Assembly (NCBI RefSeq): GCF_002834295.1 | Contig: NZ_PISP01000001.1 | Span: 1,364,001-1,428,000, forward strand | Length of the DNA: 64,000 bases | Reading direction: 5' to 3' | From: Rhodohalobacter barkolensis | GTDB taxonomy: Bacteria; Bacteroidota; Rhodothermia; Balneolales; Balneolaceae | In this document: positions 18,220 through 46,872 of the stretch, piece by piece | How positions within the stretch are numbered: position 1 is the first letter of the stretch | How the letters are laid out: every line of letters starts with the position of its first letter | Translations under genes and position numbers: made by a program | Notes under the pieces: generated by a model | Databases searched by the model: none | Told to the model about the DNA's origin: nothing | What the model saw: the letters and a program-made list of their open reading frames with translations, nothing else

Positions 18220-18410
18220 TTAAAAGTAGTGAAATTTGTTGCACCTTCCAATATCACGGGTTTCCACCGGGTTAATTTAGATTCACTATAGATTAGATCC
18301 CGGCTCATTCTTTTAATAAAATTAATTCGGATCTGTTCAAATAGAATATCTATTAACAAGACTTTATTTCTTACTTAACTTGAGTTCTACATAAGAATCT
18401 TGAATATGAT

Positions 18411-18560
18411 TCTCCCCTCCTGTGTAAGGAGGGGTTGGGGGAGGTAGATTTGATGATTTCAGGCTTCAAACCTGATCCGATTTTGGTCACAACCACCTCT
18501 GCCTTCCGAAGCTTCAGCGCAGGCAGGCCTAAGTCCCCTCCTTGAAAAGGAGGGGATTTT
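18411..18560. repeat. Convergent pair of CCCCTCC repeat units
   Basis: Two copies of a dispersed unit face each other. The left copy has CCCCTCCT (18414-18421) pairing with AGGAGGGG (18427-18434). The right copy has CCCCTCCTT (18535-18543) pairing with AAGGAGGGG (18547-18555). Sequence resembling GGTTGGGGGAGGT after the left copy is matched in inverse by ACCACCTC before the right copy. The same unit occurs near 42048, 42252, 46638, 46838 and 56695. Confidence 0.75.
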
Positions 18561-18596
18561 TCAATGCCTTTACATTTATTTTAAATCGAAATCACA

Positions 18597-19604
18597 TTAC
18601 TTGAGATCTTCTAACCTGAAACCCTGAAGAATCTTAATGTAATTAGCTCGTTCAAACGCACTGGGATCGGCAACCGATGCAGAACTCATAGCACCTTTCA
18701 TCTCTTCCAGAGACTGATACTCCTTCTCTTCCATCCAAACTTTCATCTCACTTAGCATGAATTTCAGTGCATCGGGTCCTCCATAAAGCAGCGCCGAAGC
18801 CATCATAGTCACATCGGCTCCCGCCAGAATCATCTTAATCACATCGTGTGCGGTATGAATTCCGGTAGTAGCCGCCAAACTGCCTTTTATATGCGGTCTC
18901 AACATGGCAATCCAACGCAGTGGAAGGCGTTTCTCAAATGTGCTGCTTAAATTCAGATTCGGATTCACGTCCATTGCCTCCAGATCAATATCCGGCTGGT
19001 AGAATCTGTTGAAAAGTACCAATCCATCAGCTCCTGCACTCTCCAATCGTGTAGCCATATTCGCAAATGCGCTGAAGTAAGGACTCAATTTCACAGATAC
19101 GGGAATGGAAACTGCTTCTTTCACTGCTTTCAGATCGTCGATATACATCTGCTCAACTTTTTCCGATGTCTGACTCGGGTCTGCCGCGATATAGTAGATA
19201 TTTAACTCAATGGCATCGGCACCGGCCTCCTCCATTTTACTTGCGTATGCCATCCACCCCCCTTTTGATACACCGTTCAGGCTGGCGATTACAGGAATAT
19301 CAACCGTTTTCTTGAGATTTTGAATCTGCTCCAGATAATCTTCCGCATGGAGATTGTGGTACTCATCCGGTTCAGGAAAGTAGCTGAGCGCCTCAGCATA
19401 GCTTTCACCCGAGGTTGTCAAAAAATGATCCAACGCTTCATTTTCGCGGGTGATCTGCTCCTCAAACAATGAGTACATCACAAGTGCAGAAGCCCCGGCG
19501 TCTTCAAGTTTTTTTGCGGTATCCAATTCACTCGTCAATGGTGAGGCTGATGGAACCAGTGGATTCTTAAGGGTCAGTCCAAGATATTTAGTCTCTAAAT
19601 TCAT
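18597..19604 (-). CDS. Dihydroorotate dehydrogenase-like protein
   Basis: 335-residue TIM-barrel flavoprotein resembling class 1 dihydroorotate dehydrogenase (start LGLTLKNPLVPSASPLT; later PVSVKLSPYFS, DGLVLFNRF and TTGIHTAHDVIKMILAGADVTMMASALL). Proteins of this subgroup are often encoded beside pyruvate:ferredoxin oxidoreductase genes and are probably not the main pyrimidine enzyme. Here it follows nifJ by 83 bases on the same strand. The FMN site is plausible; electron acceptor and substrate are unknown. Confidence 0.82.
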   Translation of the reverse strand: MNLETKYLGLTLKNPLVPSASPLTSELDTAKKLEDAGASALVMYSLFEEQITRENEALDHFLTTSGESYAEALSYFPEPDEYHNLHAEDYLEQIQNLKKTVDIPVIASLNGVSKGGWMAYASKMEEAGADAIELNIYYIAADPSQTSEKVEQMYIDDLKAVKEAVSIPVSVKLSPYFSAFANMATRLESAGADGLVLFNRFYQPDIDLEAMDVNPNLNLSSTFEKRLPLRWIAMLRPHIKGSLAATTGIHTAHDVIKMILAGADVTMMASALLYGGPDALKFMLSEMKVWMEEKEYQSLEEMKGAMSSASVADPSAFERANYIKILQGFRLEDLK

Positions 19605-42047: not shown

Positions 42048-42291
42048 CTCCCCTCCTTTTTCAAGGAGGGGATTAAGGGGTGGTTCAAAACTCAATGATT
42101 AATTATATAATTATCATTCTAAAAAATCGAAGAAATCAACTTAACTCAACTTCTTCAATTACAGACTCCAAACATAAAATTTTATAAAAAGTGAACTAGT
42201 TTAACCCGGATACTCACAATTACTTTTGAATAAGAACAGCATAAAACACAACCTCCCCTAACCCCTCCTTCATTAAGGAGGGGAATCTTTT
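42048..42291. repeat. Convergent pair of CCCCTCC repeat units, 244 bp
   Basis: The left unit (42048-42085) reads CTCCCCTCCTTTTTCAAGG then GGGGATTAAGGGGTGG. The right unit (42250-42291) is the same unit in inverse (CCTCCCCTAACCCCTCC then AAGGAGGGG). About 165 bases of AT-rich sequence lie between them. The layout matches 46638-46872 and resembles a small MITE-like element. Confidence 0.75.
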
Positions 42292-43889: not shown

Positions 43890-44283
43890 AATCGTATTTG
43901 TCTTATTGATTTTTGTTTAATATTAAACAATTATTAAATGAGTTTCCATTCCATTGCAGTAACCAAACCTCCAAGGTTTTCGAAACCTTGGAGGTTTAAA
44001 ATGGAGAATTAGGATTATCCTTAGCACTTAGACTCACCGCTGTTTTTCGAACCCTTCCCTGTCCCCTCCCTAAGTCGAAAAAACACTCCTCATGGAGGGG
44101 AACTCCTGAACTAGTTTGGAAATCAATTTCTATGTTCAGGCTCAAAATTCGTTTTGAGGTCACCCCCTCTTTTTGATCGGAGAGAAAAGAGAGGGGGTTG
44201 GGGGGTGAGTCCGAAGCTTGAGAATTTTAAAGAATTTCTCTAAATATTAGAGAGTTACATAAATCAAAAGAGAGAACAGAAAA
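43890..44283. other. Repeat-rich region between the LLM gene and the DUF559 gene
   Basis: No gene visible. Contains a perfect 15-bp hairpin (43965-43997) and the left part of the element enclosing the DUF559 gene (from about 44056). The promoters of the two divergent genes must also lie here. Confidence 0.55.
43965..43997. repeat. Perfect 15-bp palindrome with 3-base loop
   Basis: AAACCTCCAAGGTTT at 43965-43979 is followed by TCG and its exact complement to 43997. No T-run follows on either strand. The architecture equals the terminator at 52347-52379 (15-bp stem, 3-base loop, similar ends), suggesting a shared repeat family. Confidence 0.75.
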
Positions 44284-44846
44284 ATGATTTCAAGAAAAAG
44301 AGTCATTGAACTGGCAAGAGAGCTCCGCAAAAATGCCACTCCTCCAGAAAAGTTACTTTGGGCAGAAATGAGAAATCGGCAAGTCTGCGGGAAAAAGTTT
44401 TTAAGGCAACATCCATTGATCTACGAGGAAGACCGAGGTCGACTTCATTTTTTCATCGCTGACTTTTATTGCGCTGAATATAAATTGGTTATTGAATTAG
44501 ACGGCAAAATCCACGATAAGCAGAAATATTACGACCGTGAAAGAGATTTGATCATTGAAAGATTGGGCCTGAAGGTTTTACGATTCAAAAATGAAGAAAC
44601 CAAAGAGATGGATAAGTTAATAAAGAAAATTATATCTCAATTCTGAATTCACGGCTTTTCGGACTCACCCCTGTCCCCTCTCTACGCGTAGAGAGGGGAA
44701 CTCTTGAATAAATTCAGAGCCAAAATTCTTTGATAGGGATCAAAATTGAGTTTTCAAGTCACCCCCTCTTTGCGATCCGCCTTAGGCGGAGAAAAGAGAA
44801 GGGCCGGGCCTGTCTTCCGTAGTCTTGTACAGAGGAAGAGGGTGAG
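44056..44846. mobile_element. Repeat-bounded element enclosing a DUF559 endonuclease gene
   Basis: The segments 44056-44210 and 44668-44846 are related and run in the same direction. Both contain CCTGTCCCCTC, then GAGGGGAACTC, then CAAAATT, then TCACCCCCTCTTT, then GATC and an AAAAGAGA stretch, ending in GGTGAG. Between them lies only the DUF559 gene. Each flank has its own internal inverted repeats. Element status is inference from this structure. Confidence 0.5.
44284..44646 (+). CDS. DUF559 domain protein, VSR-like endonuclease
   Basis: 120 residues covering a whole DUF559 domain, a family related to very-short-patch-repair endonucleases with a PD-(D/E)XK fold. N-terminal helix ATPPEKLLWAEMRNRQ is typical. 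Candidate active-site residues are Asp60 in FIADFY, Glu71 and Asp73 in VIELDGKIH, with His77 close by; the DRERD helix and KVLRFKNEE strand complete the fold. No methyltransferase gene is near. It lies alone within the repeat-bounded element at 44056-44846. Confidence 0.88.
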   Translation: MISRKRVIELARELRKNATPPEKLLWAEMRNRQVCGKKFLRQHPLIYEEDRGRLHFFIADFYCAEYKLVIELDGKIHDKQKYYDRERDLIIERLGLKVLRFKNEETKEMDKLIKKIISQF

Positions 44847-44851
44847 TTTAA

Positions 44852-46588
44852 CTACCCCGTAATCTTCCGCTTCACTGCCCTTCCAATAAACCGCAACTTC
44901 TCACGCAGCGGAAAACGTCCCAGGTTGGTTTTAACAATTCCTTTTGTAAACCGGGTTCTCTTGGAATAGTCAATGTTCACATCCACAATCACCGGAATTC
45001 CTTTTTCCGCATCTTTCAAAGCTTTATCGATCACCGATTGGATATCGGCATCACTCTCCATTTTTTGATATCCGGCACCGGTAGCTTGAGCAACCCCTTC
45101 AATATCGAGCTGCCCCAACTGCGTGCATACTTTGCGATTGTACGGTATCTCCTGCCCCTGAGAAATCTGTGACAGTTCCCCGTCATTGAATACAAAAATG
45201 ACCACACCCTGCTTCAAAGATGTAGCAGTCAGAATTTCCAGTCCGGTCATCAGAAATGCACCGTCGCCCACAATTCCTACAACCTGCTTTTCCGGATTAC
45301 CCAGCTTGGCTCCGATGGTGGCCGGCACACAGTACCCCATGCAGTTGAAATCTGTCGGACAGATAAAGTGCCTTGGCTTGCGAACTTCAAAAAGCTCTGC
45401 CGTTAAAAAGGTGTGATTTCCATCATCGGCCACTAAAATCGCATCGTCCTGTAACTGACTGCGTAATTCCCTGAAAAAGAGTGCTGGATTCACTCTATCT
45501 CCCTTCAGATCATCTTTCCACTCCTTGAAATAGTTGACCTTCTCTTTTTTGATAATACTTTTGACCTGATCTTCCCGATCATCACTCCCTTTTCCATCAT
45601 CCAGCTTCAGTAAAAGCTGATTTACCACATTCGATGCATCCCCATGAATCGTTACTTTTGCCGGGTAGTTTTTGTTGAATACATCCGGGTTGATGTCGAC
45701 ATGGATCAGATTTTCAGGTACCTCCATCCCAAAACTGCCGGTCGGAATTTCACCGAAACGTACGCCAATGGCCAGCAGGCAGTCACACCCTTCAAACGCT
45801 TTCTCGGATGCAGGCACCGCATACTCCCCGATTCCCATTCCCGTGTGCAACGGATGATTTCCCGGAAAACTACTCAACCCCTGAAGCGTAGTAGCAACCG
45901 GAGCATTCAGCTTTTCGGCCAGTTTGATTAGCAAATCCCCACAATCCACTGCTCCCCATCCAACAAATAGTCCGGGCTTCTTCGATTTCTCAAGAAGCTT
46001 AACCGCTTCATCTATGGAGTCATTGTTGGGCTTCGGAGTTTGCAGGGTTGATGAGTACTCCGGAAGCTCGTCAATCTCTCCGGCAAAAAGCTGCAGATTG
46101 ACCGGAATTTCCACAAATACCGGTCCCGGTTCCCCGGAGATGGCTGTTTCATAGGCGCGATAGATCGTCGGTACAATCTCCCGGTGACTCTCAACCTTCC
46201 AGCTCTGTTTGGTAATTCCCGATAGCACTTTGTGCTGATCAATATCATGTAGCTGGTAGGCCCTCCCTGTGTCGGTCCGGATTCCACCCGATATAATCAG
46301 CATCGGAATACCATCAAGAAACGCTTCTCCAATCCCACTCATGGCGTGAGTCATTCCTGCGGCGGGGACAATCATCATACACCCGATGGATCCGGATGTC
46401 CGACTCATCGCGTCGGCCATAAACGCTCCGCCCCCTTCGTGTGTGACCAGAATAGGTTCAATCTGTTTAGATTTATTCAGTTCATCATAAATCTCAGTAT
46501 TGTGAACTCCGGGAATTCCAAAAGTGTGGGTAACCCCTACCTGCTCCAAAGAAAAAACAGTAAGTTGCGCGCCGGTCTTTTTCATCAC
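44852..46588 (-). CDS. Thiamine-diphosphate-dependent enzyme (acetolactate synthase-like)
   Basis: 578-residue enzyme of the acetolactate synthase/benzoylformate decarboxylase superfamily. The N-terminal pyrimidine domain has the catalytic Glu in VTHEGGGAFMADAMSR; the middle domain has FVGWGAVDCGD; the C-terminal domain has GDGAFLMTGLEILTA and VFNDGELSQI for ThDP and metal. The last 25 residues are basic (FPLREKLRFIGRAVKRKITG) and may contact membranes. Substrate unknown; an unlinked acetolactate synthase large-subunit role is less likely because no small subunit follows. Two adjacent ATG codons are possible starts. Confidence 0.88.
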   Translation of the reverse strand: MMKKTGAQLTVFSLEQVGVTHTFGIPGVHNTEIYDELNKSKQIEPILVTHEGGGAFMADAMSRTSGSIGCMMIVPAAGMTHAMSGIGEAFLDGIPMLIISGGIRTDTGRAYQLHDIDQHKVLSGITKQSWKVESHREIVPTIYRAYETAISGEPGPVFVEIPVNLQLFAGEIDELPEYSSTLQTPKPNNDSIDEAVKLLEKSKKPGLFVGWGAVDCGDLLIKLAEKLNAPVATTLQGLSSFPGNHPLHTGMGIGEYAVPASEKAFEGCDCLLAIGVRFGEIPTGSFGMEVPENLIHVDINPDVFNKNYPAKVTIHGDASNVVNQLLLKLDDGKGSDDREDQVKSIIKKEKVNYFKEWKDDLKGDRVNPALFFRELRSQLQDDAILVADDGNHTFLTAELFEVRKPRHFICPTDFNCMGYCVPATIGAKLGNPEKQVVGIVGDGAFLMTGLEILTATSLKQGVVIFVFNDGELSQISQGQEIPYNRKVCTQLGQLDIEGVAQATGAGYQKMESDADIQSVIDKALKDAEKGIPVIVDVNIDYSKRTRFTKGIVKTNLGRFPLREKLRFIGRAVKRKITG

Positions 46589-46637: not shown

Positions 46638-46872
46638 TTCCCCTCCTTCTCAAGGAGGGGATTAAGGGGTGGTTAGTTTTACTATATCAAAACTGAAATA
46701 ATTAATCCGTTCAGTTTTTTATGTTTCTCGCTGAATCTCGCAGATGAATTCGCAGAGTACACTGAAATTCTGAATTTCTATCAATTCAACATAAAAAGAG
46801 AGCATTCTTCATCTTAAGAAACAAAAGAATTCAAACACCCCTCTTAATCTCCCCTTTTTAGGGGAGATTTGC
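46638..46872. repeat. Convergent pair of CCCCTCC repeat units, 235 bp
   Basis: The left unit (46638-46675) contains CCCCTCCTTCTCAAGGAGG and GGGATTAAGGGGTGGTT. The right unit (46834-46872) is the inverse form (AACACCCCTCTTAATCTCCCC). The 160-base interior holds a CGCAGA repeat copy at 46722-46760. Layout and size resemble 42048-42291. Confidence 0.72.
46722..46760. repeat. TTCTCGCAGA-type dispersed repeat
   Basis: TTTCTCGCTGAATCTCGCAG and continuation. Related to 42742-42786 and 48617-48686. It is nested within a convergent CCCCTCC pair. Confidence 0.6.

Follow-up and report, generated by a model that had tools for sequence, protein, structure and literature searches.

The DUF559 nuclease gene analysed here probably forms part of a hairpin-bounded mobile cassette, in which the nuclease drives both its own spread and that of gene-free copies in a manner resembling RAYT transposases and their REP sequences. 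Mobility of the cassette is well supported by sequence comparisons, in which DUF559 genes are associated with hairpin repeats and have common ends, repeat subtypes match nuclease clades, orthologous sites are polymorphic for presence or absence, and the gene lies in frame within other genes; from these we infer that the nuclease itself is the agent, that the hairpin is its recognition site and that copying proceeds by repair. The pairing of gene and repeat recurs across phyla and inside essential genes, which suggests a family of minute mobile elements that has not been described before. The main rivals to this reading are that the gene is carried passively by a different transposase, or that it homes by itself into palindromes already in place.

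The focal locus lies in a window of 64,000 nucleotides (the whole stretch of DNA analysed) from Rhodohalobacter barkolensis, and comprises the following features:

44041-44215, plus strand: two-unit block R1-filler-L1, with a dispersed gene-free copy elsewhere in the genome
44044-44105, minus strand: hairpin unit R1, a degenerate TIR plus a CCCCTCCC..GGAGGGG hairpin
44158-44215, plus strand: hairpin unit L1, ACCCCCTC..GAGGGGGT, then TGGGGGGTGAGTCCGAA
44284-44646, plus strand: DUF559 (Vsr/EDxHD-fold) nuclease gene, 120 aa, assigned by a PF04480 match of 99.8 bits, invariant residues and a fold match
44652-44852, plus strand: two-unit block R2-filler-L2, a direct repeat of the R1-filler-L1 block
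44656-44704, minus strand: hairpin unit R2, TTCGGACTCACCCC TGT CCCCTCTCTACGCGTAGAGAGGGG, the inverted partner of L1
44757-44848, plus strand: hairpin unit L2, CACCCCCTCTTT..AAAAGAGAAGGG..GGGTGAGTTT, with a decayed inner G tract, aligned to the L1 block

In each flank an R hairpin unit is followed by an L unit of opposite orientation, and the order at the locus is therefore R1-L1-gene-R2-L2, i.e. a direct repeat of a two-unit block with the inverted pair L1/R2 immediately around the gene (inverted arms at 44190-44215 and 44658-44683). A unit is composed of a palindrome (C4 in one arm, G4 in the other), a short spacer and a second G tract; L1 terminates in GGGGGTTGGGGGGTGAGTCCGAA, and R2 follows the same plan on the opposite strand. 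When hairpin units are sorted by palindrome and tail into subtypes A to G, the repeat enclosing the focal gene is of subtype F. An earlier sequence-only reading had claimed that the two flanks carry common blocks in the same order, and this claim withstood the alignment against shuffled sequence that had been set beforehand as its refutation test (best local alignment for 44041-44215 against 44652-44852, 62; 1000 shuffles, mean 17 and maximum 32). The architecture of two direct repeats that it proposed holds at the focal locus and in a few relatives with tandem alternating units, but the general plan is one of inverted hairpin ends. The gene-free copy of the R1-filler-L1 block, at G000:C1:1324296-1324485, has 89% identity. 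Just upstream of the element, at 43965-43997, lies a different palindromic repeat, a perfect 15-bp inverted repeat AAACCTCCAAGGTTT-TCG-AAACCTTGGAGGTTT, which is missing from the orthologous site in G003 (L039) and G001 (L038).

The Pfam match of the focal protein, scored against a cut-off of 20.6, covers positions 3-106 of 109 in the profile, and residues D60, E71, D73 and H77 are present in all of 15 diverse DUF559 members from the genus. An AlphaFold model of the protein (pLDDT 88.6) matches NGO0050 (3hrl, Z 12.8), I-Bth0305I (3r3p, Z 10.9) and Vsr (1cw0, Z 9.2), in agreement with the VSR/PD-(D/E)XK fold common to DUF559 proteins; the modelled structure and the conserved acidic and histidine residues place the protein among the Vsr/EDxHD-type nucleases by fold, fold alone being no proof of activity. 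A DUF559 gene has previously been placed in the EDxHD homing family (PMC9403480). Values of dN/dS between close DUF559 pairs (0.06-0.38) reflect purifying selection, which thus maintains the enzyme in the majority of copies. A host defence or repair nuclease akin to Vsr or Caulobacter VsrA, retained beside repeats on account of its action on structured or mismatched DNA, would share the similarity to the Vsr fold and could account for the weak PADLOC matches to restriction-type models, and Caulobacter VsrA, itself a DUF559 protein, is responsible for an SOS response in cells that lack a cytosine methylase (PMC12907096). Copy numbers of zero to eight per genome, presence or absence at orthologous sites and insertion into conserved genes are, however, a better fit to a mobile element, making a host function of this kind very improbable as a general explanation; some lineages, for example VsrA or YcjD, may have been domesticated.

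Within this genus of the Balneolaceae, DUF559 is present in 22 of 28 genomes, some copies being pseudogenes. The source genome (3.6 Mb, 7 contigs) holds seven clear DUF559 genes, all of which lie between two hairpin units, together with one weak match. Hairpin units were detected by scripts and sequence patterns, and a C4-hairpin-G4 unit in the expected orientation was found within 350 bp on at least one side of 53 of the 63 genus genes with full flanks, and on both sides of 32, compared with random-position backgrounds of 2.7% and 0.06%, respectively. The proposal that dispersed repeat copies regularly bracket the gene is accordingly upheld, and DUF559 genes in relatives do not lie at random without such repeats. 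Most of the genes missed by the scripts had variant hairpin ends on reading by eye; no recognisable hairpin ends were found at L083 and at the weak match L008, and some matches lie on short or edge-truncated contigs on which the ends are not judgeable. At L012 and L013 (G009, G020), tandem alternating hairpin units with a period of ~150 bp lie on both sides of the DUF559 gene and resemble BIME arrays.

Repeat subtype follows the nuclease closely. On a tree of 61 DUF559 proteins, with subtype labels on 46 genes, subtype changes 7 times, the minimum possible being 6 and each of 300 shuffles giving at least 23. Subtypes A, B and C are each more numerous in genomes that have a gene of the corresponding clade (p = 6e-5, 6e-4 and 7e-4, respectively); for mismatched combinations of subtype and clade p lies between 0.02 and 0.16. 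The copy-number match to the own clade was also evident when subtype labels were permuted within genomes (p = 5e-5), a procedure that removes the effects of genome size, completeness and overall load, and those of kinship between genomes in part. Several genomes, whose assemblies are incomplete, contain a subtype with no same-clade gene detected (e.g. C in G006 and G017).

These results bear on the possibility that the gene is passive cargo, i.e. that another enzyme, such as a Y1/RAYT or IS200-type transposase, mobilises the hairpins and the DUF559 gene is merely carried along. Ends made up of a hairpin and a short motif do resemble REP/IS200 ends, and Y1_Tnp genes, which occur in 25 of the 28 genus genomes, correlate in number with total repeat load, indicating that general genome effects exist. 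Against this, purifying selection acts on the DUF559 gene and its clade goes together with the repeat subtype, and passive travel is further weakened because the Y1 genes examined in the genus are not enclosed by units (among the best eight loci, one has a single C4/G4 unit and none a flanking pair) and because G009, with no Y1 match, nevertheless contains DUF559 and repeats. We therefore consider carriage by another transposase quite unlikely. An origin of the hairpin repeats as RAYT products was likewise rejected, the best Y1 genes in the genus not being enclosed by C4/G4 units. One of the eight best Y1 loci has a REP-like hairpin of its own, GTCCCGTCAGGGAC..GGGTAG, and at L348 (G002:C3:9870-10214) inverted copies of this repeat stand on both sides of a Y1 transposase gene, apparently a RAYT/REP pair of the usual kind that exists alongside the DUF559 system.

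Gene-free pairs, the probable non-autonomous partners of the cassette, are present in the window:

42049-42284, no strand assigned: gene-free subtype A pair L..R, with a filler of 170 bp that is unique in the genome
46639-46869, no strand assigned: gene-free pair of L (subtype A) and R (D-like), with a filler of 164 bp that is unique bar one weak 34 bp partial match
18414-18555, no strand assigned: gene-free subtype A pair inside a longer repeated MITE-like unit

The sequence-only reading had pointed to gene-free pairs of CCCCTC-rich units in the window as relatives of the focal flanks; the pairs are real (42050-42283, 46640-46866 and 18414-18555), but they belong to subtype A, which has the general design in common with the focal subtype F without being identical to it. 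The check it proposed, whether gene-free copies have the same termini as gene-bearing ones, came out in favour, and the orientation agrees as well: for adjacent units of subtypes A-E no more than 400 bp apart, the fetched stretches of the home genome contain 18 convergent L..R pairs and 0 divergent R..L pairs. The convergent order is also that found around the gene in these subtypes; occasional neighbours point in the same direction. Successive intergenic gaps in G007 are occupied by two copies with the gene and one without it, the gene-bearing copies having 468 bp in common at 84% and their similarity stopping within about 15 bp of the hairpins. In most gene-free pairs, however, the filler occurs only once in the genome and resembles neither the gene nor other fillers, and at one site even sister species have different fillers, an outcome not predicted by simple copying of L-filler-R. 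Fillers were also considered as recognisable deletion remnants of the nuclease gene, a candidate rejected on the grounds that most are unrelated to it. No clear target-site duplication was seen, and interiors are mostly unique apart from one MITE-like subfamily. A repeated unit of ~215 bp, with outer inverted ends TTAACTTGAGTTCGACATAAG..TATCGAACTCATGTTA and a subtype A hairpin pair within, occurs at 18380-18600 of the window, at L292, L293, L299 and L301, and at positions 3066-3265 of L004; the genome contains roughly 10 copies related to its filler.

Orthologous sites compared across the genus, as had been proposed from the sequence alone, include gene-bearing, gene-free pair, solo palindrome and empty states. 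The L007 site contains the gene in subtype A ends in G000, G017 and G023, gene-free A pairs in G001 and G003, gene-free C pairs in G007, G014 and G015, and neither gene nor pair in G021 and G016. At the L002 site the gene is present in G000 and G007, nothing is present in G001, and G011 and G016 each have a single palindrome that corresponds to the left arm of L joined to the right arm of R. The focal site in G001 holds a single decayed R-L block, compared with R-L-gene-R-L in G000, and that in G003 holds R-L followed by the contig end. A solo palindrome is found at the L006 site in G001, and remnants at this site in both sister species suggest loss. At several sites a solo palindrome may be either a pre-insertion target or a remnant.

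Such polymorphism would also fit homing, in which the hairpins would be older and independently dispersed, and only the DUF559 gene would enter palindromes or L-R pairs, via double-strand-break repair. Solo palindromes at orthologous sites (the L006 site in G001, the L002 site in G011 and G016) could serve as its targets, one site carries A with the gene, A without it and C without it in different species, and a homing endonuclease is the closest characterised enzyme by fold. What was observed of homing-type behaviour is presence/absence polymorphism of the gene. Entry into older palindromes sits poorly with a subtype copy number that follows its own nuclease, with ends at nearly every gene copy and with gene-free pairs that are strictly L..R. 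Homing of the gene alone is on this basis unlikely, and a cassette mobilised together with its ends remains the preferred reading.

The association extends beyond the genus. Across the phylum, 109 of 198 genomes searched contained DUF559, with inverted hairpin ends frequent, and a broader scan, which used a three-member alignment and in which Acinetobacter is over-represented, identified strong inverted ends near the gene at 28 of 41 loci, compared with 0 of 36 control comparisons using flanks 1.3-1.6 kb further out. The loci scanned include Planktothrix, Thiomargarita, Turneriella, Candidatus Bipolaricaulis, Neomarinimicrobiota, a Rhizobiaceae strain and a Methanophagales archaeon. The commonest end outside the genus is CCCTCACCCCnnnCCCCTCTCCC..GGGAGAGGGG, in which the C tract is usually outermost, whereas the palindrome is outermost in subtypes A-E. 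In E. coli K-12 the DUF559 gene is ycjD, with a clear repeat on one side only, a CCCTCACCCTAACCCTCTCCCC hairpin ~165 bp past its 3' end; a 56-bp query with this repeat was matched at 18 places in the median E. coli genome. BoxC is a repeat of 56 bp with 32 copies in a published listing (PMC2267715), and the ycjD repeat, which agrees roughly with it in length and copy number, the two properties compared, may be BoxC.

Several matches to DUF559 also fall within long open reading frames, as in-frame inserts in leucyl-tRNA synthetase (leuS; L179, L181), methionine synthase (metH; L197, L203), type I restriction subunits (L182, L184, L191) and methyltransferases. Many insert borders are translated hairpins (PSPxPSPxGRG.., PLPLGEDLGEGK), and Pfam assignments locate the DUF559 domain inside or between host domains in L179, L203 and L182; no Pfam match to a protein-splicing (intein) domain was obtained for these three, absence of a profile match not being proof. 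L182 and L184 are homologous HsdR proteins whose inserts do not occupy the same position, and within one family of 13 genomes a LeuRS loop carries an insert of ~125-165 residues in 4 and is without it in 9; the eight readable ones of these 9 have a gap of 5-21 residues. Insert-free LeuRS proteins (L332, L335, L337, L338) sometimes have other in-frame repeat-like sequence, e.g. TTCGAGCGGAGTCGAGAA, in the same loop, as if the loop tolerates repeat insertions. At L178 (G133), a methyltransferase-like frame apparently contains several in-frame gene-free hairpin copies as well as a DUF559 insert.

Because of these in-gene insertions, it is hardly credible that the hairpins act as terminators in both directions, or have some other regulatory role, and merely happen to suit small intergenic genes. 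Most hairpin copies are indeed intergenic, and several are followed by short T runs outward, but a regulatory role would not account for in-frame copies within leuS, metH and hsdR, for clade-specific sequence, or for the absence of hairpins from control flanks.

Amongst known systems, the closest likeness is to REP/REPIN sequences and their RAYT (TnpA-REP) enzymes, and this parallel, drawn already from the sequence alone, has gained from the analysis: a lone small gene lies between oppositely oriented copies of an extragenic hairpin repeat that is also dispersed elsewhere, copies without the gene are the more numerous, and repeat sequence co-varies with enzyme clade. The DUF559 cassettes differ in their enzyme, which is a nuclease of the Vsr/PD-(D/E)XK type and lacks a Y1/HUH domain (no Y1_Tnp match in Pfam), in ends consisting of a C4/G4 hairpin and a G4 tract instead of GTAG and a hairpin, and in their occurrence in frame within protein genes; since the defining Y1 enzyme is absent, they are not members of the RAYT/REP group, and the family has a fair chance of deserving a class of its own. 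EDxHD homing endonucleases (I-Bth0305I) and free-standing homing genes share the catalytic-domain fold and presence or absence at orthologous sites, but no intron, intein or extra DNA-binding domain was seen in the DUF559 cassette, and its hairpin ends also exist as dispersed gene-free pairs. BoxC/ycjD offers a similar picture of a DUF559 gene with a nearby dispersed hairpin repeat, subject to the identification by length and copy number given above. Rickettsia palindromic elements (RPE) are palindromic repeats that insert in frame into protein genes, a property in common with the inserts described here; unlike RPE, the DUF559 insert encodes a nuclease. MITEs are likewise short gene-free inverted-repeat elements whose gene-bearing partner has the same ends, whereas the DUF559 cassettes have no known transposase class, mostly unique fillers and no target-site duplication that we could see.

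The following mechanism appears the most likely. The cassette would consist of one DUF559 gene between inverted ends, each comprising a GC-rich palindrome (CCCC..GGGG) and a second G4 tract (GGGG(T/A)G), with gene-free L..R pairs bearing the same ends as non-autonomous partners. The nuclease, of homing-type Vsr/EDxHD character, would recognise the hairpin ends of its own subtype and cut or nick them, possibly when extruded as a cruciform or single-stranded, and host repair would then copy the cassette into the cut site. Alternatively, recombination between the two palindromes may delete the cassette and leave a solo palindrome.

Short palindromic repeats are abundant in bacteria, and the source of most of them, apart from REP/RAYT, is unexplained. 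In the literature covered, outside which subscription journals lay, we found nothing linking DUF559 to palindromic repeats; the present analysis ties one uncharacterised nuclease family to such repeats across many phyla. A wider proposition, which we put forward tentatively and with slightly more doubt than belief, is that DUF559 nucleases drive hairpin-ended mobile elements across phyla as a second palindrome-generating enzyme family besides the RAYTs, with BoxC among their products and with some elements invading essential genes in frame, where they are tolerated as inserted domains. With repeat subtypes matching nuclease clades, the origin of the repeats can be put to a direct test, for which a protein of 120 residues and a substrate of 40 bp suffice. 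If true, the proposition would supply a function for a widespread DUF and explain the odd DUF559 inserts in leucyl-tRNA synthetase and methionine synthase.
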